From: a virus
Direction: 5' to 3' (one strand)
DNA: 58,450 bases
IMG/VR virus record: IMGVR_UViG_3300046804_002328
Coordinates: 1-58,450 of that record
Below the pieces are notes generated by a model. That model saw only the letters and a program-made list of their open reading frames with translations, ran no database searches and was not told where the DNA came from. Position 1 is the first letter of the stretch; every line of letters begins with the position of its first letter. Both the position numbers and the translations under genes were made by a program. Positions 12,191 to 52,503 of this stretch are shown piece after piece.

Positions 12191-12244
12191 TATCAATGAG
12201 GAAACACGCCTTTTAATTTCTAGAAAAATAAAGAGGTGAAATAT

Positions 12245-12868
12245 ATGGCTTATACTCGTGGTACAAGCAACAACATTATCGTTGGTGCTGCTGCCCTCTT
12301 CACATATGAAGATGGCGTTTTGCCAGAGGCTGGTGTCCTTCCAGGATATTCAGCAGGCGTATCTTACAAGACGACTCTTTCTGATGAAGAAGGGTTCCGT
12401 AACGTAGGATATACAATGAATGGTTTGGAACTTCAATTCCAGCCAGACTTTGGAGAAGTATCTGTCGATCAGGTTCTTGACGTTGCAAAGTTGTTCAAGC
12501 AAGGTATGAAGGTTAATCTTAATACTACATTTGCTGAAGCAACATTGGAAAATCTTTTGTTTGCACTTGCAAGCAAGGATAGCAATCTAACAAGCGTATC
12601 TGGTAATCCAACATTAAATCTTTCCGCAGGCGACATCGGTGAATGCCCAGTCGAACGTGGTTTGGTTGCTGTAGGACCTGGAACTGGTGATTGCGCTGCA
12701 TCTGACCAGATCGAAAGAGTTTATGTTGCATACCGTGCACTTTCAATTGAAAATGTAACCGTGTCTGCAAAGCGTGATGCTGCTTCTATGTTTGAAGTTT
12801 CATTCCGTCTTCTTCCAAATGATGCAGGTTCATATGGTAAGATCGTAGATCGTACTATCCCAGCATAA
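12245..12868 (+). CDS. Major tail tube protein
   Basis: This 207-residue protein has GC-richer, well-biased codons like the capsid gene, a sign of high expression. It opens MAYTRGTSNNIIVGAAALFTY and contains a GLELQFQPDFGEVSVDQV stretch, of the kind seen in tail tube proteins. It has an own -10 element, an AGAGGTG ribosome site 6 nt upstream of the ATG at 12245 (chosen over GTG 12236), and a strong terminator 20 nt after the stop. Its location after neck genes and before chaperones and tape measure fits the tube subunit. Confidence 0.75.
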   Translation: MAYTRGTSNNIIVGAAALFTYEDGVLPEAGVLPGYSAGVSYKTTLSDEEGFRNVGYTMNGLELQFQPDFGEVSVDQVLDVAKLFKQGMKVNLNTTFAEATLENLLFALASKDSNLTSVSGNPTLNLSAGDIGECPVERGLVAVGPGTGDCAASDQIERVYVAYRALSIENVTVSAKRDAASMFEVSFRLLPNDAGSYGKIVDRTIPA

Positions 12869-12889
12869 TACAACTTAATAATACAGGAG

Positions 12890-12914
12890 ACCCAGTCTTT
12901 ATGACTGGGTTTTT
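12890..12914 (+). terminator. Intrinsic terminator after the tail tube gene
   Basis: ACCCAGTC (12890-12897) and GACTGGGT (12903-12910) form an 8-bp perfect stem with loop TTTAT, followed by a T tract (12910-12914). Confidence 0.9.
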
Positions 12915-12920
12915 CTGTTT

Positions 12921-12929
12921 TGGTATAAT
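12921..12929 (+). promoter_or_regulatory. Extended -10 promoter with leaderless start
   Basis: TGgTATAAT ends at 12929, exactly 6 nt before the ATG at 12936, so the predicted transcription start is the A of the ATG. Confidence 0.65.
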
Positions 12930-12935
12930 GTATTT

Positions 12936-13622
12936 ATGCCAACTCAAATTTATGATAATACAATTGTGACATTAATTGATGGAACAGAACTATACATTAC
13001 TCCTTTAAAAATAAAATATTTAAAATTATTTATGCAAGAATTTGAACGGGTTAAAAAATCTAAAAATGATGATGAGGCAATAGATGCATTGGCATACTGC
13101 ACAACTATTATGATGAGGCAGTATTGTCCAGAAATAAAAACACAACAACAATTAGAGGATAGAATTGACCTTCCAACAGTATATAAAATATTAGAATATT
13201 CTGCAGGCATTAAAATAAATGAAAAATCTGAAAAACCAGTAAAAGAGCAAGCCGAAAAAAGTGGATCAACTTGGGATGACTTAGATTTGGCAGAATTAGA
13301 GTCAGAGGTTTTTCTTCTCGGTATTTGGAAAGATTATGAAGAACTAGAATCTTCAATGTCAATGCCAGAGATGACAGCAACTTTAAAAATAAAAAGAGAC
13401 TTAGATTATGAGCAAAAAAAGTTTTTGGCAGCAATGCAGGGTGTAGATTTAGATAAAGCAAGTGGTAAACAGGACGCATGGGAAGAAATGAAAGCCAGGG
13501 TATTTAGTGGTGGCAAAGCAGCAGACTCAAAAGACATATTAGCACTACAAGGACAAAATGCAACTACGGCTGGTTTTGGTATTGGTTTGGGATTAGAATA
13601 CGAAGATCTTACCCAAAAATAA
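12936..13622 (+). CDS. Tail assembly chaperone, long form
   Basis: This 228-residue protein sits between the tube and tape-measure genes, the usual place for G/GT-type tail assembly chaperones that coat the tape measure during tail building. Residues 1-90 align by eye with the next gene's product. Shared landmarks are LIDGTEL/LIDGSEL, PLKI, a central Asp-rich turn, a CPEIK/KPELS segment and DLPTVY followed by I-x6-G. Residues about 95-228 form an extra Glu/Asp/Lys-rich C-terminal region absent from the paralog. This pair looks like separate long (GT-like) and short (G-like) genes. Transcription and translation probably begin together at 12936 (leaderless). A terminator isolates it from the tube gene. 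Confidence 0.7.
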   Translation: MPTQIYDNTIVTLIDGTELYITPLKIKYLKLFMQEFERVKKSKNDDEAIDALAYCTTIMMRQYCPEIKTQQQLEDRIDLPTVYKILEYSAGIKINEKSEKPVKEQAEKSGSTWDDLDLAELESEVFLLGIWKDYEELESSMSMPEMTATLKIKRDLDYEQKKFLAAMQGVDLDKASGKQDAWEEMKARVFSGGKAADSKDILALQGQNATTAGFGIGLGLEYEDLTQK

Positions 13623-13632
13623 AGGTTGATTG

Positions 13633-13641
13633 TGGTATAAT
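13633..13641 (+). promoter_or_regulatory. Extended -10 promoter before the short chaperone
   Basis: TGgTATAAT (13633-13641) lies 26 nt before the ATG at 13668, with an AAGGAGG ribosome site between. It would allow the short chaperone and tape measure to be expressed separately from the long chaperone. Confidence 0.6.
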
Positions 13642-13667
13642 TATTTCACTTACCTTAAGGAGGAATA

Positions 13668-13991
13668 ATGGCAGAAAAGCCTACAAAAAAGACTGTAAAA
13701 CTCATCGATGGATCAGAACTTGCTGTACAACCATTAAAGATCTCATTGCTAAGACCTTTTATGAAGAAGTTTGCTGATTTAGCAACCGTTAGTGATGATA
13801 ATGATAAATCAATGGATATCTTGTTAGATTGTGTTCAGATTGCGATGAAACAATATAAACCAGAATTATCAGAAAATAAAGATGATTTAGAAAACTTACT
13901 AGATCTTCCTACAGTCTATGAAATTATTGATGCTGCAACAGGATTCCAAAATGCTGATGCAAGTACATTAATTAGTTCCATGTCTAAGTAA
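13668..13991 (+). CDS. Tail assembly chaperone, short form
   Basis: This 107-residue protein is homologous to residues 1-90 of the preceding gene: LIDGSEL, QPLKI, the Asp-rich SDDNDK turn, KPELS, then DLPTVYEIID. It lacks the long acidic tail. Its own extended -10 promoter and an AAGGAGG ribosome site suggest strong expression, as expected when the short chaperone is needed in excess over the long one. It directly precedes the tape measure gene. Confidence 0.72.
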   Translation: MAEKPTKKTVKLIDGSELAVQPLKISLLRPFMKKFADLATVSDDNDKSMDILLDCVQIAMKQYKPELSENKDDLENLLDLPTVYEIIDAATGFQNADASTLISSMSK

Positions 13992-14019: not shown

Positions 14020-17000
14020 TTGGCAGATGTAAATTCTAATATTAATATAAATTTTAACACTGCCGATGCCTTAGCACAGTTAAGAAAATTACAGGCTGGC
14101 CTCAGCACGTTTCACCAGACTCTTGCTGAGGGTAACCTTGCTGCAGCAAATGCTCAAAAAGGTTTAAATGCTCAATTAATACAAACAATAGGTGCAACTG
14201 GAAAATTCTCTGCAAGTCAGACTAAGGTTGCATCAAGTACTTTATCTTTTACCAATGCATTAGAAAAAAATAAATTATCTCTTCGTGAATATTACAGATA
14301 CTCTATGGCTGCTGCTACAGCCAATACTACTCTTTTATCCAAGGCATTTGCACAAGAACGAGAAATTATTAATCGTGCTCGTAGAGATAGGGTAAAACTT
14401 CTTCAGTCACAATATATACAATTAAACAAAGCAAATGCTGGCTTTATTGATGCATTAAAAATAATGCCAAGGTCTTTGGCAATGGCCAATGGTAGATTTA
14501 CAGAACTTGGAACTAGAATTCAATATGCTGCACAGAGACAACAAATTTTAAATAAATTATTAATGCAAGGATCCACAAATCTCCTTAATTTTGGTAAAAA
14601 CATGCAATGGGCTGGCCGTCAGTTAATGGTTGGTTTATCTATACCAATGATGATGCTAGGTGGTTATGCATCTAAAGCATTTAGAGAATTAGAGCAAGCC
14701 ACTGTTAAGTTTAGACGTGTTTATGGTGATGCATTTACTAATGATTCAGAAGTAGAGGCAGCAGTACAAAATATTAAAATGCTTGCCAAAGAATATATTA
14801 AATATGGCGTTGCAGTTAAAGATACAATGGATATGGCATCTACTGCAGCAGCAGCAGGTTTCTCAGGTAAAGCATTAACACAGCAGGTTAATGCTGCGAC
14901 TAAACTTGCAGTTCTTGGACAAATTGATCAGCAAAAAGCACTTGAAACAACAATATCATTACAAAATGCCTTTGGGTTATCTGCAGATCAACTTGCAGAA
15001 AAGATTAACTTTTTAAATGCTGTTGAAAACCAAACAGTATTATCTATTGATGATTTAACAACTGCCATTCCTAAAGCAGCACCAGTTATTAAACAACTTG
15101 GTGGTAGTGTTGAAGATCTTGCATTCTTCCTTACAGCAATGAAAGAAGGTGGAATCAATGCAGCAGAAGGTGCCAACGCAATTAAGTCTGGCCTTGCAGC
15201 ATTAATTAATCCAACAAAACGAGCATCGGATATGCTTGCTGGATTTGGAATTAATATTAAAGGTTTGATAGAAGCCAATAAGGGCGACATTAAAGGTATA
15301 GTAGTTGGTTTTGCAAGAGCACTTGATACGCTTGATCCACTTAATCGTGCTCGTGCTATTGAACAGTTATTTGGTAAATTCCAATTTGCACGTTTATCTA
15401 CATTATTCCAAAATGTTGCAAAAGGTGGATCACAGGCATCAAGAGCATTTGATTTAGCAGGAGCATCTGTAGAAGAGTTAGCAATTTTGTCTGAACGAGA
15501 AATGAAAAAGGTTCAGGATGCAGTAGGTACAAAATTTCAGGCAGCAGTTGAACAGTTCAAACAAGACATAATGCCACTTGGCAAATCATTTTTAGAAGCA
15601 GTAACTCCTATAGTAAAGTTTTTTGGAAAGTTATTTGAAAAATTTAATAATTTAGGAGACGGAACCAAAAAAGTTATAACAATTATTGCAGGTTTGGTTG
15701 CTGGTTTAGGTCCAGTTTTATTAATGACATTCGGTCTTCTTGCAAATGGTTTGGCCAATTTAATTAAATTATTTGCAACAATTAGAGGTGGAATTGCTAA
15801 ACTTAATGGACAAACAAATGTTTTAGGTGCTGGTTTTAATTATGTAACACAAGAACAAATTGATCAACAGGCATCAGCACAAGCATTACATAATACACAT
15901 ACAAAACTAACAGAAGTTTTTAACGTTGAAAAAGTTGCAGCAATTCAATTAGCAGAAGCCTATATGCAATTAAGTAGTCAAATGAGAGCAATGGCACAAC
16001 AAAATCCAGGTCTATTTGTTGGGGGGATGGGTGGAACAGTTAAGGCTGTTAAAAATTTACCTCCGATTCCAAAAGTTAAAAAGTTTGCAGATGGAATAGT
16101 TAGTGTTCCAGGACCAAAGGGTGCTGGCGATGTTGTTCCAGCAATGGTTTCTCCAGGTGAGGCAATTATTCCTACCAAGACTTCTGAAAAATATCGTGGA
16201 CTCATTACTGCAATGTTTAATGATAATGTTCCAGGATTTGCAACTGGAAGATTACCATGGGGTTCAAATCATCCAATTAAACAGTCTGGCGCTGTGGATA
16301 TCGGTATGCCAAAGCGTTTTGCAGAAACAACACAATCAAGAGAAATTGCTGCAAGAATAGATGCTGCAGTTAGATCTGGAAAATTTTCTAAAATGCCTCC
16401 GACAGATTTTGGTACATTGCTACAACCATTCTCTGGCAGAAGTTTTCCAATTCGTGGAGTAGGTGGAGTATATAGAAAGCCAGATGGAAAACTTGTAGTT
16501 GTTAAGCCAACTATGGATGAGAAAACTGCTTTAGCAGAAGTTCGTGCTACAGAAATAGCAAGAGAAGTTCATGGCTTGACATCTCCAAAACAAGAAATTA
16601 GAACAATGATTGATCCAACAGATTCAACTGGTCAGAGAAAATTAATTGTTTTAGAATCACCATATGATCCAAAAATTGCAGCAGCAACTGGTAAATTTAC
16701 AAAGAGAGACATGATTAAACAGTTGGTTGCATCAACTTTAAGAGCAGATAAAGATTTACAACAAGCAAACATATCTGGAAATATATTGGCAGATGTTGGT
16801 ACTGCTGGTGTATTTGCAAGGGCTTCTGGCTTTAGAGATTATGCAAGTAATCTTCCAGGAATGGGAGAAATGGGATTAATAAACCTACTCGGTGTCAAGG
16901 GTGGCGCTAAAAAGTTTTTTGCACAAGAAACATCTTCTATAGCATCAGGCATGACTGCAAAGCAATATGAAGATGCCATATTAAAAGAAATTAATTCTGA

Positions 17001-20000
17001 TTTACCAAAATTAAGAAAATTAATAGATAAATGGAATCTAAATCCAGTTGAAAAGCAAGCATATGAGGCAATGTATCAAAGACTTGAAGAAGGCAAAAAG
17101 GTAGACTGGAAAAAATTACACTCTGTTCATATTGCTGCTGGAAATGTTACTAAAAAATATTCAGATGGTATAGATCCATCTCCTAACGAAAAAGTAATGA
17201 AAGAAGCAATATCTAGATATATGCTTGAGGGTAATCAATCAGATAAGATATTAGCAAATTTAAAAGGAGAGTTTGATACAAAATTTATAAATAAATTAAA
17301 TAAATTAAAAAATATAGATCCAGAAAGAGCAGCGCTAATACAACAAGCGTGGCATGGTGGTGGAAAGTATAAGCAAGGAAGACAATCTCAGTTCCATCAT
17401 GTATTAAAAGATATGGTTCCCATTAAAGTTGGCGAAGAAACCCTTTATATTTCTAAAACAGATTTTAATAAATTTGCATCGGATCCAGAAAAACAACTTA
17501 AATATGCAAGATCAAAAGATTATATAATTGATCGTGGTCTTTATAGAATGGGACTTGCTCCAGATCAAACTGGCAGATTTGTAGGTGGAGGAGATTTAAC
17601 AAAGTCACGAGCATTAAGTGCAAAACATTTTGCTTTTGATTTACAAACATCTAATAAATCAGCAGGTGGCGGAAGAGGATTATTATCTAAAACTGTTAGA
17701 AAAATTGCAGATGATCAAAGAAAAATATTTCAAGCATCAATGGGAGATCCATTAAAGACTACTGCAGGACAGATATTAAAGGATGCAAAATATTCTCCTG
17801 AAGATATTAAATATTTATTAAGACCAGAACTTTCTCACCTAGAAGGACATCAGTTGGGAGAAAGACAAGGTTCACAATCAATGAAAACTGGCTACGGTAT
17901 GTATGATGCCAGACTTGTAAATAATTTCATGAATTCTAAAAAACGACATAGCAAACTTCTTCAATGGAATGAAGATGAATATTCAAAACTAGCAAGTGGC
18001 AAAAAGGGATATCCATTTTTAAGTCCAGAACAAATAGATGAATATAAAAAGGCAGCAACCTTTATGTCTCTTGAAAGGCATCCAGTTAATGCCATAGAAA
18101 GAGAATTAGTTGCTAAAGCAGTAGAGTTAGATATTTTAGCATTAAATGCTAAAGAAAAAGGAATTAAGGTTCCAGGTACTACACAGAGTCCTTCAGCAAA
18201 CTTACGAGCACTTAAAGCAATACTTGATCCAAATAGTAAAATTAAACCAAGTAGTTTAATGGATCTTCAGGCTTTAGAATCAGGAAAGGTATTGGTTCAA
18301 CCAGGAGAAATTCAAGTTAATAATCAAACTGGAAAAATTTCTATAGTTCGTGGAGGAATGACTGCCCCAACTGGATCTGTAAGGATTGGCGGAAGTCAAG
18401 CAGATAAAATTATTGGCGATGAAAAAAAGAATACATATTATTCAAAAAAATCATTTATGCCTCAATCAACATCAAGAAGTTTGGCATTTTATGGAAGAGA
18501 AACTGGAACACCAGGTGCAATTGATAGATTAAGTAATAATGCTAGAGGCAGAATTACAAATGCAATAAGAGAGCAAGAAAGATTATTAAAACAACAAAAT
18601 AAATATACAAAAGAACAAATTGATTCTGCAATGAAATCATATAGAAGAAAATTGGTCGCTGATGAACAGGCAAAAGCAATTTCTTATAGACAGCAACAAA
18701 TAGCAAGAGAAGAAATAAGACAACAGCAAAGTAAAGTATTAAACGATAAACAGGCAGCATTGGCTGCAAAACAACAGCAAAAAGAAACTGTAAAACAAAA
18801 TAGAATGATGCGTCAAGAAAAGATTGGCAGATTTTCTGGTGGAACATCTATGGTTCTTGGAACTGCTGGAATGGCAGCAATGATGAGCGGTCATACTGGA
18901 GTTGGTGCAGCATTAACTGGAGCCTCTGCAATTGCTGGAATGGCACCTATGTTTGCTGGTATGGGTCCAATAGGAATTGGAGTAACAGCAGTTGCTGCAC
19001 TTGCTGGCGGTATGTATATGTTAGATCGTGCTGCCAAAAAGGCTGCAGAATCACAATCAAACTATATAGATTCTATTACCGCTACAACTAGTAAGATGGC
19101 ACAAATTGGAGAAATAACAAATAAAGTTGGTGCTTCTGAAATAATGGCAAGAAGAAGACTTGGAACTGTTTCAGATAAGTATACAACTGGATTTGAAAGA
19201 GGAAAACAACAATTTGGTACAACATTTTTAGATAGCAGTGTCGGCAAAGATATGTTAAAAACACTTACGGATAACTTACAAAAGTCAGGTACCGTTGCTG
19301 TAAAAAATATAGCAGCAGAACTTTCTGCTTATATTTCTGACGGTATTTTAACTGCTGAACAAGCACACAGTATTGCTCGTGCAATAGGAATTAATTTACA
19401 AGATATGACTCTTGCAATGAATATTAGTGCACAGGTAACAGATCTTGTTGGACCTAATGGAGAAAACTTAGTCAATAATCCATTACAAACAAGACTCAAC
19501 ATAGTTAATGCATCAATGTCTAATGCAGGTCTTATTCAATCTCAATTGGATAAAGAAAAGGCATCTGGAACTCCTTTTAGCAAAGAGGCAAGAAATTATA
19601 GAGCACAGCAGGCAGCATTGGGTGTTCAAGGATTAGAAATTAATCAAGCACAACTTGATTCTTATAATTTATATTATGAAAAACAAATTAAATCTTTGGA
19701 AACTCAAAAAGCAATTACTACAGACAAGCAAAAACAAAAAGATCTTGATACACAGATTAAAACACTTCAAGATGAACAACTTGCGGGTCAGGGAAAGTTT
19801 GCTGAAAATTCAAAGAAAATATTAGAGGATCAACTTAATGCATTTAAAGATGCACAAAAGTATGGTGGTCAAGTAGAGTCGGCATTTTTTAATTCTCTTA
19901 AAAATCAAGTAAAAACTAAATATAAAGGAACAGCACAAGAAGGATTTGTAGATTCACTATTAAAACAAACTGCTGAATTAAAGAGCAAAACACTAGAGGT

Positions 20001-23000
20001 TTCTATTGATACTGTTGTTGCTTCGGGAGAATTGCCTCCAGCAACAGCAATGAAGTTATTAGATACCTTTGCTGGAGATGAAGCAACATTAGAAAAAACC
20101 TTTAATGTATTAACTTCGGTACACGATGCTGGCGCAGTTACTGAACTTATTAATTCTTTAGGTGGAATAACTGATAAAGACATACAAAAAAATATAATAA
20201 TTTCTGCTGCAGGACTTAGTGGAGATAAACTTAAAGAATTTCAAAGTGTATTAAATTTATTAAATACTATGCAAGGTAAAGAAATAGATATTAATACATT
20301 TATTAAAAATAATGTTCCAAAAGATGGAAATCCAATAGAGGCTTTAACAAAACTTTCAAATCTTTTAAATAAGGTAGAAAAGTTTCCTAAAAAAATTACT
20401 CAAAAAACTTTAATTGATATACAGACATCGGATCCAGATATGCCGTCTATGCAAGGTTTAATCGATGTATGGAAACAATATGAAAATCTTCCAGATTCTG
20501 TTAAAAAAACTGTTGTTCAGGAATATATAAGTTTATATAAATCAATAGGGGCAGATGAAGCAAAAGCATTTATAGCAAAAAAGACAGCAGGACTTCCATC
20601 TGATGTTGCTGATCGTGTAGCAAAACAATATATAACTAGTTACAACAGCAAGGGAGAGCCAGTATATGACGTCGGTGCAATTGCAGCAGACATGATTCCT
20701 CAAAGCGTTAAAAGTGGTATATCGTCAAAAGATGGAAGCAAGTCTAACGCAGGTATCGGTGGTACAAAACAAGATCCATATGCAGATCTCTTAAAAAGAC
20801 TCAAAGAAGTTAGAAATGCAGCAATAGATGCTGCTGGAGGAATAAGTTCATTAAATAAGGCATTAGCAGAAGGCAATGTGTCATCAATTAAAAATAAATA
20901 TGCTGGTATTGAACAACAGTTACAGTCTCAAGGATATAATCAAGGATTTATAGATTTCTTACAGGGCATGGATCCTGCAGAACAAAAGAAATGGATGCAA
21001 ACAACCTACACAGCATCAAAGGGTAAATATAAAGGACAGGTCATTGATCCATTTACTAAGTTGCCAGCAGCGCAAGGAGTAAAAGAAGGTCAGGTAGTTT
21101 TATCAGCAAATGCTAAAAAACAGGCTCAAGGATTTGACGCATTAGTAAGCGGTGAATTTAATAGTGCAACACAAAAACAAATTAACTCTATCAAATATCA
21201 AAATGATTCATACAGAAAGTTAATTGCTGCAGGTTATGATCATTTGACTGCTCAAAAATTAATATCTGATGAGTATCTTGCTCAGGCTATAGCAACAGGA
21301 AAATTAACACAAGAAGAAATTAATCAAAATGCAATAATGGCAAAAGAAATTGTTACAAGAGAAAAAATTAATAGTCTTATTACTCAAGGAAGAGATGCAA
21401 TCAATCAACAAAATATGTATCTTAAAAATACAACAACTGGAGTATCTAAAGTTCAAGAACTGTTATTATTCTTACAAACAAGAGGAATGGCTTTTAGCGG
21501 AGATGCTATTAGAAATATAATTGGTGATCCAGAAACGCTTTCTACATTAATTGCTGGTATGGATAATGTAAAGGCTGGCATCGCTGGTGCAGCCGACGCA
21601 ATGAATGAATTAGTTGCTGGTGTTAAAGCACTTAAAGATAATTCAGACATAACTTTTGCTATTAAGTTTGCAACACAAACTATGTCTCAAAATGTTCAAT
21701 CTGGAATGCAATCTGCACAAAATATTAATAATGTTCTTAAAGGTGTTTATTCTAATTTAAATGTTGGGGAATTATCTAAGTTACAAAGTTTTAATCCAAT
21801 TAAAAAGACAACAACAAATGTTGGACAAAAAGCAATTGAAATGGTTAATGCCAACTATGCTGCTGCAGGTATGCCTATTCCAAAAATATCTGCAACAGAT
21901 ACTCTAAAAAGTATTCAAAAACAAAAATCAGTAAAAGAAACTCAACTTAATTTGGCAAGAACACAAGAACAATATATTCAAAATGAATATAATAGCATTA
22001 CAGATCAAATTAATAATATTGATAAAAACTTGCAAGAATCTATAGATGGAATTAATAAAACTGCAGATGCAGCAATTAAAATACAACAAGATCAAATAGA
22101 TGCTAATGAAAAATTAATTAAAGATAAATTTGAAGCGCCTACTCAAAAACTTGATGCTGAAAATAAAAAACTAAGCAATGATCTTGCAATTATTGATCAT
22201 GCTGCAGAACAAATTAATAAAAAATATGATGCACAAGTTCAAGCATTAGAAGAAGTTAATAAAGTAAATCAGCAAATTCTTGATAGTCAAAAACAACAAC
22301 TTGATATTGCAGATGCATTAACACAGGGTGATATTGCTGCTGCAGCAAAGTCTGCACAAGATATGAGAGCAGCAAGTGCTGCCAATTATGCAGATAATAT
22401 TTCAAACGCTATCGAACAATCTAGACAAAATGATTTAGCAGCATTACGTGGTACAGAAACAGGAATGACAAAGGATCAAATTGCTGAAAGACAATATCAA
22501 ATTAGCCAAGAGTTATATAAATTAGAAACTGATCCAGAAAGATTAAAACTTGAACAAGCAATTGAAGATGCAAAAAATAATATTTCAAAAATTGAAGAAC
22601 AAAGAACAAAAGATATTCAAACACAAACTGATTTAGCAGAAAAACAAAAAGTAACTCTTGAGGCACAACAAAAAGCGGTAGAGCAACAATTAGCAGATCA
22701 AACCAAAATAACTACAGCCTTAGAAACCGATGTTTCTAAATTAACCGATATGGAAACATATATGCAGTCAATTGCTGATGCAGCAGCAGAGTTAGATGAT
22801 TCTACAGGAATGACCTTAGAAGATTGGTTAACTTTATCTGAAAAACTTCCAGATATTTCAAAATTAACAGAAGATTATAAAAATTCATTGGTTGCAGCAG
22901 CAACAAGTTCTGGAGAAATGGCTACAAGTTGGTCTAGTGTGTTGGCATCTATTAATGCAATACCTTCAAAAATTAATATAAGTTCTGTTTTGGATATTGT

Positions 23001-23706
23001 TAAGAATATAACAGAAAATATTACAAGATATATAAAGACCGTTTATGATAATGCCTCAGACGGTACTGGAAACGGTAACGGTAATGCCAACGGTAGTGGA
23101 ACACAAAAACCAGGTGCTGCATGGATATCAGATGGAAAGGGTGGTTGGAAAAAACCAGATAAACCATTCGGCGATTATGAATGGGATGATAATAAAGGAT
23201 GGAACAAGCAGGGTTCTGGTCTTGCAATAACTGGAGAAGGTGACAGCAAATCAGGAACTGAAAAAATTGCAGCAGATAAGGCAGCAGCAGATGCAGCAGC
23301 AGCAAAGGCAGCAGCAGACAAGGCAGCAGCAGAAGGACATAAGGGAACATATGCCGAAGGATTAGCAATTTATCCATGGGTTGCTAGTACAGGATCAGCA
23401 GCACCAAGCATCTTAAGAGGATATGGATATTGGGCAAAGGGCGGTATGATTCCAAGAGGAACTGATACAGTTCCAGCAATGTTAACTCCAGGCGAATTTA
23501 TTATGAGCAAATATGCAGTTGATAAATATGGTGTTGATAATTTAAGATCAATAAATAATGGAAACTCTGTTGGTGATTCAGTGTATAATTATAGTATTAA
23601 TGTCAATGTTAAATCAGATGCAAATCCTGATGACATTGCCAAAACAGTTATGGCTCATATTCAAAGAGTTAACTCACAACAAATTAGGGGTGTTAAAATA
23701 TCATGA
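14020..23706 (+). CDS. Tape measure protein (3228 aa)
   Basis: This protein sets tail length and is ejected ahead of the DNA. Residues about 215-420 match the phage minor-tail/TP901-type tape measure domain (FRELEQATVKFRRVYGDAF, then AASTAAAAGFSG). Hydrophobic segments lie near residues 551-585 and 1608-1675. Long Gln/Lys/Ala-rich coiled coils fill about 1525-1605 and 2640-2920. Two copies of a VPAM-x-PGE motif occur near residues 705 and 3150. Residues about 794-1047 look like an inserted globular domain. An Ala/Lys/Asp tract lies near 3085-3110. Start is TTG 14020, 9 nt after AGAGGTG; an ATG at 14013 opens only an 8-codon frame. At roughly 0.15 nm per residue the tail would be about 480 nm. 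Confidence 0.92.
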   Translation: MADVNSNININFNTADALAQLRKLQAGLSTFHQTLAEGNLAAANAQKGLNAQLIQTIGATGKFSASQTKVASSTLSFTNALEKNKLSLREYYRYSMAAATANTTLLSKAFAQEREIINRARRDRVKLLQSQYIQLNKANAGFIDALKIMPRSLAMANGRFTELGTRIQYAAQRQQILNKLLMQGSTNLLNFGKNMQWAGRQLMVGLSIPMMMLGGYASKAFRELEQATVKFRRVYGDAFTNDSEVEAAVQNIKMLAKEYIKYGVAVKDTMDMASTAAAAGFSGKALTQQVNAATKLAVLGQIDQQKALETTISLQNAFGLSADQLAEKINFLNAVENQTVLSIDDLTTAIPKAAPVIKQLGGSVEDLAFFLTAMKEGGINAAEGANAIKSGLAALINPTKRASDMLAGFGINIKGLIEANKGDIKGIVVGFARALDTLDPLNRARAIEQLFGKFQFARLSTLFQNVAKGGSQASRAFDLAGASVEELAILSEREMKKVQDAVGTKFQAAVEQFKQDIMPLGKSFLEAVTPIVKFFGKLFEKFNNLGDGTKKVITIIAGLVAGLGPVLLMTFGLLANGLANLIKLFATIRGGIAKLNGQTNVLGAGFNYVTQEQIDQQASAQALHNTHTKLTEVFNVEKVAAIQLAEAYMQLSSQMRAMAQQNPGLFVGGMGGTVKAVKNLPPIPKVKKFADGIVSVPGPKGAGDVVPAMVSPGEAIIPTKTSEKYRGLITAMFNDNVPGFATGRLPWGSNHPIKQSGAVDIGMPKRFAETTQSREIAARIDAAVRSGKFSKMPPTDFGTLLQPFSGRSFPIRGVGGVYRKPDGKLVVVKPTMDEKTALAEVRATEIAREVHGLTSPKQEIRTMIDPTDSTGQRKLIVLESPYDPKIAAATGKFTKRDMIKQLVASTLRADKDLQQANISGNILADVGTAGVFARASGFRDYASNLPGMGEMGLINLLGVKGGAKKFFAQETSSIASGMTAKQYEDAILKEINSDLPKLRKLIDKWNLNPVEKQAYEAMYQRLEEGKKVDWKKLHSVHIAAGNVTKKYSDGIDPSPNEKVMKEAISRYMLEGNQSDKILANLKGEFDTKFINKLNKLKNIDPERAALIQQAWHGGGKYKQGRQSQFHHVLKDMVPIKVGEETLYISKTDFNKFASDPEKQLKYARSKDYIIDRGLYRMGLAPDQTGRFVGGGDLTKSRALSAKHFAFDLQTSNKSAGGGRGLLSKTVRKIADDQRKIFQASMGDPLKTTAGQILKDAKYSPEDIKYLLRPELSHLEGHQLGERQGSQSMKTGYGMYDARLVNNFMNSKKRHSKLLQWNEDEYSKLASGKKGYPFLSPEQIDEYKKAATFMSLERHPVNAIERELVAKAVELDILALNAKEKGIKVPGTTQSPSANLRALKAILDPNSKIKPSSLMDLQALESGKVLVQPGEIQVNNQTGKISIVRGGMTAPTGSVRIGGSQADKIIGDEKKNTYYSKKSFMPQSTSRSLAFYGRETGTPGAIDRLSNNARGRITNAIREQERLLKQQNKYTKEQIDSAMKSYRRKLVADEQAKAISYRQQQIAREEIRQQQSKVLNDKQAALAAKQQQKETVKQNRMMRQEKIGRFSGGTSMVLGTAGMAAMMSGHTGVGAALTGASAIAGMAPMFAGMGPIGIGVTAVAALAGGMYMLDRAAKKAAESQSNYIDSITATTSKMAQIGEITNKVGASEIMARRRLGTVSDKYTTGFERGKQQFGTTFLDSSVGKDMLKTLTDNLQKSGTVAVKNIAAELSAYISDGILTAEQAHSIARAIGINLQDMTLAMNISAQVTDLVGPNGENLVNNPLQTRLNIVNASMSNAGLIQSQLDKEKASGTPFSKEARNYRAQQAALGVQGLEINQAQLDSYNLYYEKQIKSLETQKAITTDKQKQKDLDTQIKTLQDEQLAGQGKFAENSKKILEDQLNAFKDAQKYGGQVESAFFNSLKNQVKTKYKGTAQEGFVDSLLKQTAELKSKTLEVSIDTVVASGELPPATAMKLLDTFAGDEATLEKTFNVLTSVHDAGAVTELINSLGGITDKDIQKNIIISAAGLSGDKLKEFQSVLNLLNTMQGKEIDINTFIKNNVPKDGNPIEALTKLSNLLNKVEKFPKKITQKTLIDIQTSDPDMPSMQGLIDVWKQYENLPDSVKKTVVQEYISLYKSIGADEAKAFIAKKTAGLPSDVADRVAKQYITSYNSKGEPVYDVGAIAADMIPQSVKSGISSKDGSKSNAGIGGTKQDPYADLLKRLKEVRNAAIDAAGGISSLNKALAEGNVSSIKNKYAGIEQQLQSQGYNQGFIDFLQGMDPAEQKKWMQTTYTASKGKYKGQVIDPFTKLPAAQGVKEGQVVLSANAKKQAQGFDALVSGEFNSATQKQINSIKYQNDSYRKLIAAGYDHLTAQKLISDEYLAQAIATGKLTQEEINQNAIMAKEIVTREKINSLITQGRDAINQQNMYLKNTTTGVSKVQELLLFLQTRGMAFSGDAIRNIIGDPETLSTLIAGMDNVKAGIAGAADAMNELVAGVKALKDNSDITFAIKFATQTMSQNVQSGMQSAQNINNVLKGVYSNLNVGELSKLQSFNPIKKTTTNVGQKAIEMVNANYAAAGMPIPKISATDTLKSIQKQKSVKETQLNLARTQEQYIQNEYNSITDQINNIDKNLQESIDGINKTADAAIKIQQDQIDANEKLIKDKFEAPTQKLDAENKKLSNDLAIIDHAAEQINKKYDAQVQALEEVNKVNQQILDSQKQQLDIADALTQGDIAAAAKSAQDMRAASAANYADNISNAIEQSRQNDLAALRGTETGMTKDQIAERQYQISQELYKLETDPERLKLEQAIEDAKNNISKIEEQRTKDIQTQTDLAEKQKVTLEAQQKAVEQQLADQTKITTALETDVSKLTDMETYMQSIADAAAELDDSTGMTLEDWLTLSEKLPDISKLTEDYKNSLVAAATSSGEMATSWSSVLASINAIPSKINISSVLDIVKNITENITRYIKTVYDNASDGTGNGNGNANGSGTQKPGAAWISDGKGGWKKPDKPFGDYEWDDNKGWNKQGSGLAITGEGDSKSGTEKIAADKAAADAAAAKAAADKAAAEGHKGTYAEGLAIYPWVASTGSAAPSILRGYGYWAKGGMIPRGTDTVPAMLTPGEFIMSKYAVDKYGVDNLRSINNGNSVGDSVYNYSINVNVKSDANPDDIAKTVMAHIQRVNSQQIRGVKIS

Positions 23707-33644: not shown

Positions 33645-33971
33645 ATGGAGACATATCAGCACAAACCAATAAAAAGGTTTGGAATGGACGGAGTAATCTA
33701 CGATGACTCATCCATATATAGATTGCAGCAAGAATATATCAGGTTACTGGTATCTGAGATGCGTCTATCTGGGTATGTTCCAAGGTTTGATATTGATCCA
33801 CAATTTACAATAGAATATAATGAAAAAAATAATACATATAACTTTATACTAAGCATATACGGAATATATATAGGGAGAAAGAAAAGCGAATGGATATTAG
33901 GAATAGACGGAACGAAAGCAATGCCTATACAGCCAACCAAATCAAGAGAGTACTCGCAGGATCTGGCTTAA
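33645..33971 (+). CDS. Hypothetical protein between helicase and primase
   Basis: This 108-residue protein is Tyr- and Ile-rich, with segments YRLQQEYIRLLVSEMRLSG and YNFILSIYGIYIGRKKS. Its last 82 nt overlap the start of the primase gene in another frame. The predicted transcription start is one base before its ATG. Family unknown; a replication-accessory role is possible from position. Confidence 0.5.
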   Translation: METYQHKPIKRFGMDGVIYDDSSIYRLQQEYIRLLVSEMRLSGYVPRFDIDPQFTIEYNEKNNTYNFILSIYGIYIGRKKSEWILGIDGTKAMPIQPTKSREYSQDLA

Positions 33972-49003: not shown

Positions 49004-49219
49004 ATGAAAATGCATAGAGTCCTTTTATCGTGTATACTTATACTAAGTCTTAGTGGTTGTGGCTATAATGGTTTTTATCGCTACGAATGTCAAGACCCAG
49101 CAAACTGGGAAGCAAAGGAATGTAATCCTCCAGTTTGTGAGCCTACTGGAACTTGTTCAAGAGACTTGGTAGGTAAAACAGTATGGGACGAATACCAGAA
49201 CGGAAAGAAAAATGGCTAA
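49004..49219 (+). CDS. Small lipoprotein
   Basis: This 71-residue protein has a lipobox LSGC with the modified cysteine at residue 19 after a hydrophobic signal (VLLSCILILSL), then a Cys/Pro-rich exported domain with five more cysteines. It would be anchored to the outer face of the membrane. It lies within the lysis cassette under its own leaderless promoter. An exclusion or lysis-timing function is conceivable; not proven. Confidence 0.65.
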   Translation: MKMHRVLLSCILILSLSGCGYNGFYRYECQDPANWEAKECNPPVCEPTGTCSRDLVGKTVWDEYQNGKKNG

Positions 49220-49657: not shown

Positions 49658-50254
49658 ATGGCAGAACAAGGTACAGCAGCACGACTTATTGAAGTTGCTA
49701 AAGGTGAATTAGGAACAATTGAAGGTCCAAAAGATAACGAAACAAAGTATGGTGCATTTACAAAGGCTAATTTTCAGCCATGGTGTGGTTCTTTTGTTAT
49801 GTGGTGTGCAAATGAGGCAGGTGTAAAAGTTCCAAATACTGTTTATACTCCAGGCGGTGCACAAGCATTTAAGAAAGCAGGCGCATGGATTGATGGAGAT
49901 GTAGCAGATCCAGAACCAGGTGATATTGCTTATTTTGATTTTCCATCAGATGGAGTAGATAGAATCTCACATGTTGGTATTGTTATTGCAGATAACGAAG
50001 ATGGGACTGTTTGGTGCATTGAAGGAAATACTAGCCCAGATAAAAAGGGTAGCCAAAGAAATGGTGGACAAGTATCCAAAAAACTTCGTGCATTTAAAAA
50101 GAATAAGGCTGGAGAAATGATTTCTATTGTAGGGTTTGGTCGTCCAAAATTTGGTGGATCAGCAAAGCCTGCAGCAAAATCTTCTGCTCCAGTATCAAAT
50201 AAAACTACTAAACCAAAAACTTGTCCAGCATGCGGACAAGAAGTCAATAAGTAA
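49658..50254 (+). CDS. CHAP-domain endolysin
   Basis: This 198-residue enzyme has a CHAP amidase/peptidase domain over residues 1-155. The catalytic Cys is C43 in QPWCGSF, the His is H105 in RISHVGIV and a polar residue follows in IEGNTS (about 122-126). It cleaves host peptidoglycan at the end of infection. After a Lys/Pro/Ser linker the C-terminus carries a lone CPAC knuckle (C189, C192) that resembles half of a zinc ribbon. No signal peptide, so holin-dependent export is expected. SD AAGGAG precedes the ATG. Confidence 0.88.
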   Translation: MAEQGTAARLIEVAKGELGTIEGPKDNETKYGAFTKANFQPWCGSFVMWCANEAGVKVPNTVYTPGGAQAFKKAGAWIDGDVADPEPGDIAYFDFPSDGVDRISHVGIVIADNEDGTVWCIEGNTSPDKKGSQRNGGQVSKKLRAFKKNKAGEMISIVGFGRPKFGGSAKPAAKSSAPVSNKTTKPKTCPACGQEVNK

Positions 50255-52317: not shown

Positions 52318-52503
52318 ATGCCAGCATATGAATATGATTGCATGCCTTGCGGTTTGCGTTATACCAAGGTTAGAGGTATGTCAGAGGATGATCCAGGGTA
52401 TTTATGTGATACTTGCCAAAAGCCTTTGGTACGTGTATACTCTAGTATAGGAGTTACATTCAATGGCTCTGGATTCTATAAAACTGATAATAGAAAGGTA
52501 TAA
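52318..52503 (+). CDS. FmdB-type zinc-ribbon protein
   Basis: This 61-residue protein begins MPAYEYDC and has C8, C11, C30 and C33 in CMPC and CDTC, followed by a GSGFYKTD end. This is the FmdB/CxxC-CxxC-SSSS family of putative regulators. ATG 52318 starts the conserved MPAYEY; the upstream ATG 52279 belongs to another gene. Confidence 0.8.
   Translation: MPAYEYDCMPCGLRYTKVRGMSEDDPGYLCDTCQKPLVRVYSSIGVTFNGSGFYKTDNRKV

Follow-up and report, generated by a model that had tools for sequence, protein, structure and literature searches.

Two adjacent genes in a 58,450-nucleotide viral stretch (IMG/VR record IMGVR_UViG_3300046804_002328, positions 1 to 58,450, hereafter the window) probably encode the long and short tail assembly chaperones (GT and G) of a long-tailed, actinophage-like virus, as a fused gene followed by a stand-alone paralogue rather than as a frameshift pair. 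Our overall explanation, to which we give a probability of about 0.8, is that both forms once came from a single frameshifting gene, that this gene was duplicated in tandem, and that the two products are now balanced through promoters and translation initiation. Few known recoding events are as well conserved as the G/GT frameshift, and a conserved −1 frameshift in phage tail genes was reportedly described by Xu, Hendrix and Duda in 2004. Candidate reasons for its conservation include a fixed ratio, the coupling of two products, and genome economy. Since a whole lineage appears to have lost the frameshift while near relatives kept it, the two groups offer a comparison of the same proteins in the presence and absence of slippage.

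Two paralogous genes in the tail module

The long gene, GT (12936–13622, plus strand), encodes 228 aa in one uninterrupted frame and has no Shine-Dalgarno sequence, as expected of a leaderless gene. The short gene, G (13668–13991, plus strand), encodes 107 aa and is a stand-alone paralogue of the GT N-domain. Both open reading frames lie exactly where the first-pass annotation had placed them, long gene first. As chaperone genes do, the pair sits between a major tail protein gene and a tape measure gene. The upstream neighbor (12236–12868, plus strand) belongs to a major-tail/Ig-domain protein family (phrog_2175) and is syntenic with Streptomyces major tail protein genes, and the downstream neighbor (14020–23706, plus strand), which encodes 3228 aa from a TTG start after GAGGTG, is syntenic with tape measure genes.

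The first-pass annotation had proposed that the 228-aa and 107-aa products share an N-terminal domain, and alignment and profile comparison of both proteins agree that the N-domains are related. BLASTP aligns them at 42% identity over 85 aa (E 5e-21), profiles of the N-domain family (32 members) align across 97 columns with 99.9% probability (E 4e-34), and GT and G alike match phrog_10504. Within GT, this G domain, delimited by its BLASTP and profile match to the short protein, spans residues 1–97 (12936–13226, plus strand) and is confidently modeled by AlphaFold. The first-pass annotation had also given a long acidic tail to the first protein only. The extension is real, but the label is not: the extra 130 residues consist of a linker and a conserved T domain (residues 113–228; 13272–13619, plus strand), recognized by alignment and by the match of the C-terminal part of GT to phrog_10474, and homologous to the second-frame T open reading frame of Streptomyces Stanwilliamsviridae phages. 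By domain content, the first gene is an in-frame G–T fusion and the second encodes G alone. All three domains are under purifying selection (median dN/dS 0.06–0.15).

Several searches bear on the identity of these proteins. A tblastn search of 50,697 phage records returned matches in Streptomyces phages only, 127 records in all, many of them annotated as tail assembly chaperone (E about 1e-26). The matches fall in two pieces, the N-terminal part of GT to one open reading frame and the C-terminal part to the next, and because the Streptomyces phages encode the matching parts as two open reading frames, the 228-aa protein reads as a G–T fusion in a single frame. The Streptomyces records that were fetched belong to the Stanwilliamsviridae (Samistivirus, Karimacvirus), and their matching open reading frames are annotated as tail assembly chaperones. 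Some environmental family members match the chaperone families phrog_1932 and Phage_TAC_19; a Pfam search with the window's own two proteins gave no match. The AlphaFold model of G consists of a β-hairpin and helices (pLDDT 80), and among named viral models a tail assembly chaperone matches it best (E 1.5e-6, TM 0.76). In a structure search of the PDB, the HK97 chaperone 2ob9 ranks first at a non-significant score (E 1.3, TM 0.44). A sequence profile search of the PDB found no relative, and neither did a scan of genome contigs for a host or prophage. We infer that GT and G function as tail assembly chaperones, and the Streptomyces phage relatives suggest an actinobacterial host. With this assignment, phrog_10504 and phrog_10474, two PHROG families so far lacking a function, would gain a role.

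Fused and split relatives

The survey of relatives covered 329 loci, taken from four IMG/VR scans (the best 80 loci each) and from Streptomyces records, with some contigs repeated; given this capped sampling, the counts are not a measure of prevalence. Domain searches of this set (best 80 per scan) identified 292 loci with GT then G, 26 with split G and T frames, and nine with GT alone. Within the same best-80 sampling, G comes next in 292 of the 301 fused-GT loci, and the nine GT-alone loci stop at contig ends within about 110 nt past the GT stop. The long-then-short order seen in the window thus recurs in all 292 loci of sufficient length. In every one of 11 fused contigs of 100–125 kb, a G profile matched at exactly two places; in 9/9 split contigs it matched a single gene, which in one case was hit as two pieces.

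The Streptomyces Stanwilliamsviridae phages (Samistivirus, Karimacvirus; Yaboi gp59/60 and Targaryen gp58/59) resemble the window in their homologous G and T domains (36–39% identity) and in gene order, the chaperones being flanked by the genes for the major tail protein and the tape measure. Unlike the window, they carry one copy of G, with T in a second, overlapping frame offset by 2 (equivalent to −1), the two being joined in the Yaboi annotation. Unlike the window's GT, their G is preceded by a leader and a Shine-Dalgarno sequence. Split environmental relatives carry a slippery sequence in the G/T overlap, which is GGGAAAC in three loci (L263, L283, and L304) and CCCAAAT in four others (L260, L261, L310, and L319). 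The Samistivirus-type split genes (L001, L002, and L259) have no X_XXY_YYZ heptamer in the overlap and a conserved GACCCGGAACTG there instead, which may point to an unusual slip site. In split relatives L261, L262, and L268, the G domain has an insertion of about 30 residues.

For the fused genes, nothing points to expression of G and GT by frameshifting, and the first-pass view that this is no frameshift pair is supported. In the window, the first G and T share a reading frame, nothing T-like follows the second G, and a conserved X_XXY_YYZ slippery heptamer, sought at the G/T junction of 175 distinct fused genes, was not found. Any slippery heptamer at all occurs at the junction in 36/175 fused genes, the commonest column accounts for only 25/175, and synonymous conservation at the junction is not raised. 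The same data weigh on recoding in the reverse direction, as in dnaX, where slippage by −1 or +1 in the A-rich stretch joining G to T (GAA AAA AGT) would yield a G-length protein and the 107-aa gene would be an extra paralogue. The window does have an A6 run close to where G meets T, and a slip there into either alternative frame would reach a stop within about eight codons. However, close relatives such as L005 and L010 do not have the A6 run, and given this and the unremarkable junction of the fused genes, we consider such recoding very improbable.

A two-gene arrangement is not unprecedented, since some T4-like phages are described, in a later article, as carrying a short gene alongside a fused long one, with no frameshift (PMC10885494, citing Vladimirov, Gautam and Davidson, 2022, Virology 566:9–15). 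The likeness is one of description: in that account, too, a short gene is accompanied by a second gene in which the short form is fused to an extra domain. The window likewise has two genes, one short and one fused, and no frameshift, and we claim a shared solution only, not membership in that group. In the window's lineage, frameshifting sister lineages and conserved leaderless and leadered signals are observed. No published description of such a pair in actinophages was found in the open literature searched. As far as that literature shows, the new elements are the fixation of the pair in a lineage related to the Streptomyces Stanwilliamsviridae phages, the presence of frameshifting sisters with intact slippery sites, and the leaderless/leadered contrast. 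For annotators, the implication is that a frameshift should not be forced on such gene pairs.

Origin of the pair

In a tree of G sequences (84 rows), the G domains of fused genes (G1) form one clade (100/89) and the stand-alone Gs (G2) form another (99/86), with no mixing between them. These separate clades indicate that the pair arose once, by one old duplication, and was never homogenized. Split relatives with the GGGAAAC heptamer group with G2 in the G tree (99/94), not outside G1 and G2 together; in the T tree they adjoin the clade of fused T domains. A single clade of G1 and G2 is not rejected by the AU test (p 0.395). The T tree is not firm on one fused clade, which the AU test does not reject (p 0.46) and which receives 80% of bootstraps without the long-branch pair L310/L319; one origin of the fused T clade is therefore favored but not proven. 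In L310 and L319, which are split-frame loci with CCCAAAT, the T domain falls within the fused clade as a long branch and G lies with L260/L261, and these loci are possible recombinants.

The simplest reading of the trees is that the frameshift is ancestral and that one duplication took place, after which the second copy would have kept the ancestral short form and the first would have become fused and faster-evolving. The G domain of GT is indeed the faster-evolving one, with a mean identity of 52.5% vs. 65.7% for stand-alone G. Both orders of the duplication and the lineage split are compatible with the trees, given the two AU values. An origin other than simple duplication, in which GT, either entire or in its G part alone, recombined in from another phage beside a resident G, would agree with the grouping of the frameshift relatives' G with G2, apart from G1. 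We regard it as unlikely, however: for their T domains, the fused genes have these frameshift relatives as closest neighbors, so that at least T was inherited vertically, and the AU test accommodates G1 and G2 in one clade.

The long separate evolution of G1 and G2 in distinct clades, together with the faster change of the G domain of GT, could also mean that the 107-aa protein has become a tail accessory protein and is no longer the short chaperone isoform, leaving GT to act alone. Two observations make this divergence of function quite improbable. First, it is the stand-alone G, not the G domain of GT, that groups with the G of frameshifting relatives, as retention of the ancestral short-form role predicts. 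Second, stand-alone G is never absent beside GT on contigs that are long enough. Under the duplication reading, the ancestor would have made both forms from one gene via a −1 ribosomal frameshift, and tandem duplication would have given rise to an in-frame G–T fusion in the first copy and a G without T in the second, with loss of the frameshift site.

Start signals and the GT:G ratio

The first-pass annotation had assigned each gene its own promoter, with one gene leaderless and the other equipped with a strong Shine-Dalgarno sequence, and these signals, extended −10 elements and AAGGAGG, are kept in 175 distinct relatives. The putative GT promoter (12901–12929, plus strand) has a weak −35 element (ATGACT), a 17-nt spacer, and an extended −10 element, TGGTATAAT, at 12921–12929, which ends 6 nt before the ATG. 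The predicted transcription start is the A of the ATG at 12936. In relatives, TGnTAnnnT ends 5–7 nt before the GT start in 156/175 sequences, compared with 0/175 at G (G2) starts and 0.29% of other ATGs, and the spacing from the GT −10 element to the start is 6 nt in 139 of the 175 distinct sequences. The putative G promoter has its own extended −10 TGGTATAAT inside the GT–G gap (13633–13641, plus strand), followed by the Shine-Dalgarno AAGGAGG (13657–13663, plus strand), which pairs strongly with the anti-Shine-Dalgarno in relatives. TGnTATnnT is found 24–37 nt before G, mostly 24–28 nt, in 174/175 relatives. Median anti-Shine-Dalgarno pairing over the 175 distinct sequences is −11.1 kcal/mol for G vs. 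−2.9 kcal/mol for GT, with every G at or below −6, in a comparison where the G start was picked among candidates by Shine-Dalgarno score, which favors strong G pairing, and where the same starts are seen in the alignment. The transcription start sites of both genes are thus predictions from conserved signals.

After the major tail protein gene, and directly upstream of the GT promoter, comes an intrinsic-terminator-like hairpin with a T-tract (12886–12914, plus strand; fold −21.3 kcal/mol, z −6.2), absent from the first-pass annotation. A hairpin and T-tract upstream of GT occur in 168/173 distinct relatives vs. 2/173 shuffles, and such a site was found only once in the GT–G gaps. In all split relatives examined (15/15), the single G is preceded by a 22–42 nt leader and a Shine-Dalgarno sequence (−8 to −11 kcal/mol). 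As the split relatives carry only the leadered form, loss of the leader goes with the fusion, and G2 keeps the ancestral start.

These signals suggest how the pair may work. Transcription of the major tail gene would end at the terminator, and the GT promoter, placed for a transcription start at the ATG, would produce a leaderless message from which few GT molecules are expected. The second promoter, with its 5′ leader and strong Shine-Dalgarno sequence, together with read-through of the GT message, would supply G in larger amounts and continue into the tape measure gene. By analogy with lambda, G would coat the tape measure and GT would recruit tail-tube subunits. Lambda gpG and gpGT are likewise a short and a long form with a common N-domain, encoded upstream of the tape measure gene. 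In lambda, however, one recoded gene supplies both and slippage sets the ratio, whereas with two genes the ratio would depend on transcription and initiation. The ratio of the two lambda forms, 30:1, is known to matter (PMC5009743).

Control of the GT:G ratio probably lies with a pair of promoters and two modes of initiation rather than with slippage, because the start signals are conserved over 175 sequences and split relatives carry only the leadered form. The first-pass suggestion that these signals may set the ratio is thereby well supported, by inference from conserved sequence rather than by demonstration. Leaderless messages are not always poorly translated, which counts against the low GT output assumed above: in mycobacteria, protein/mRNA ratios of leaderless messages are not systematically different, though predicted transcript production was lower for leaderless reporters (PMC7148126). 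On balance, we favor the view that gene duplication took the place of a near-universal recoding event in a widespread phage lineage and that the chaperone ratio is now controlled by paired promoters, the long form being leaderless and the short form having a strong Shine-Dalgarno sequence, while a terminator insulates the pair from the tail-tube gene. Being conserved, the leaderless/leadered contrast makes a clear prediction on how the GT:G ratio is maintained.

Leaderless starts as a phage-wide habit were considered and rejected, as only a few window genes look leaderless (12936, 49004, and perhaps 33645). The gene at 49004–49219, a 71-aa open reading frame with a lipobox-like N-terminus (MKMHRVLLSCILILSLSGCGYN), lies just upstream of the endolysin gene (49658–50254). 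It has TGGTATAAT exactly 6 nt before its ATG and is likely a second leaderless gene. The ATG at 33645, with TATAAT 7 nt upstream and no Shine-Dalgarno sequence, possibly marks another. Elsewhere in the window, a small protein encoded at 52463–52759 matches DUF7455 (E 2e-17).
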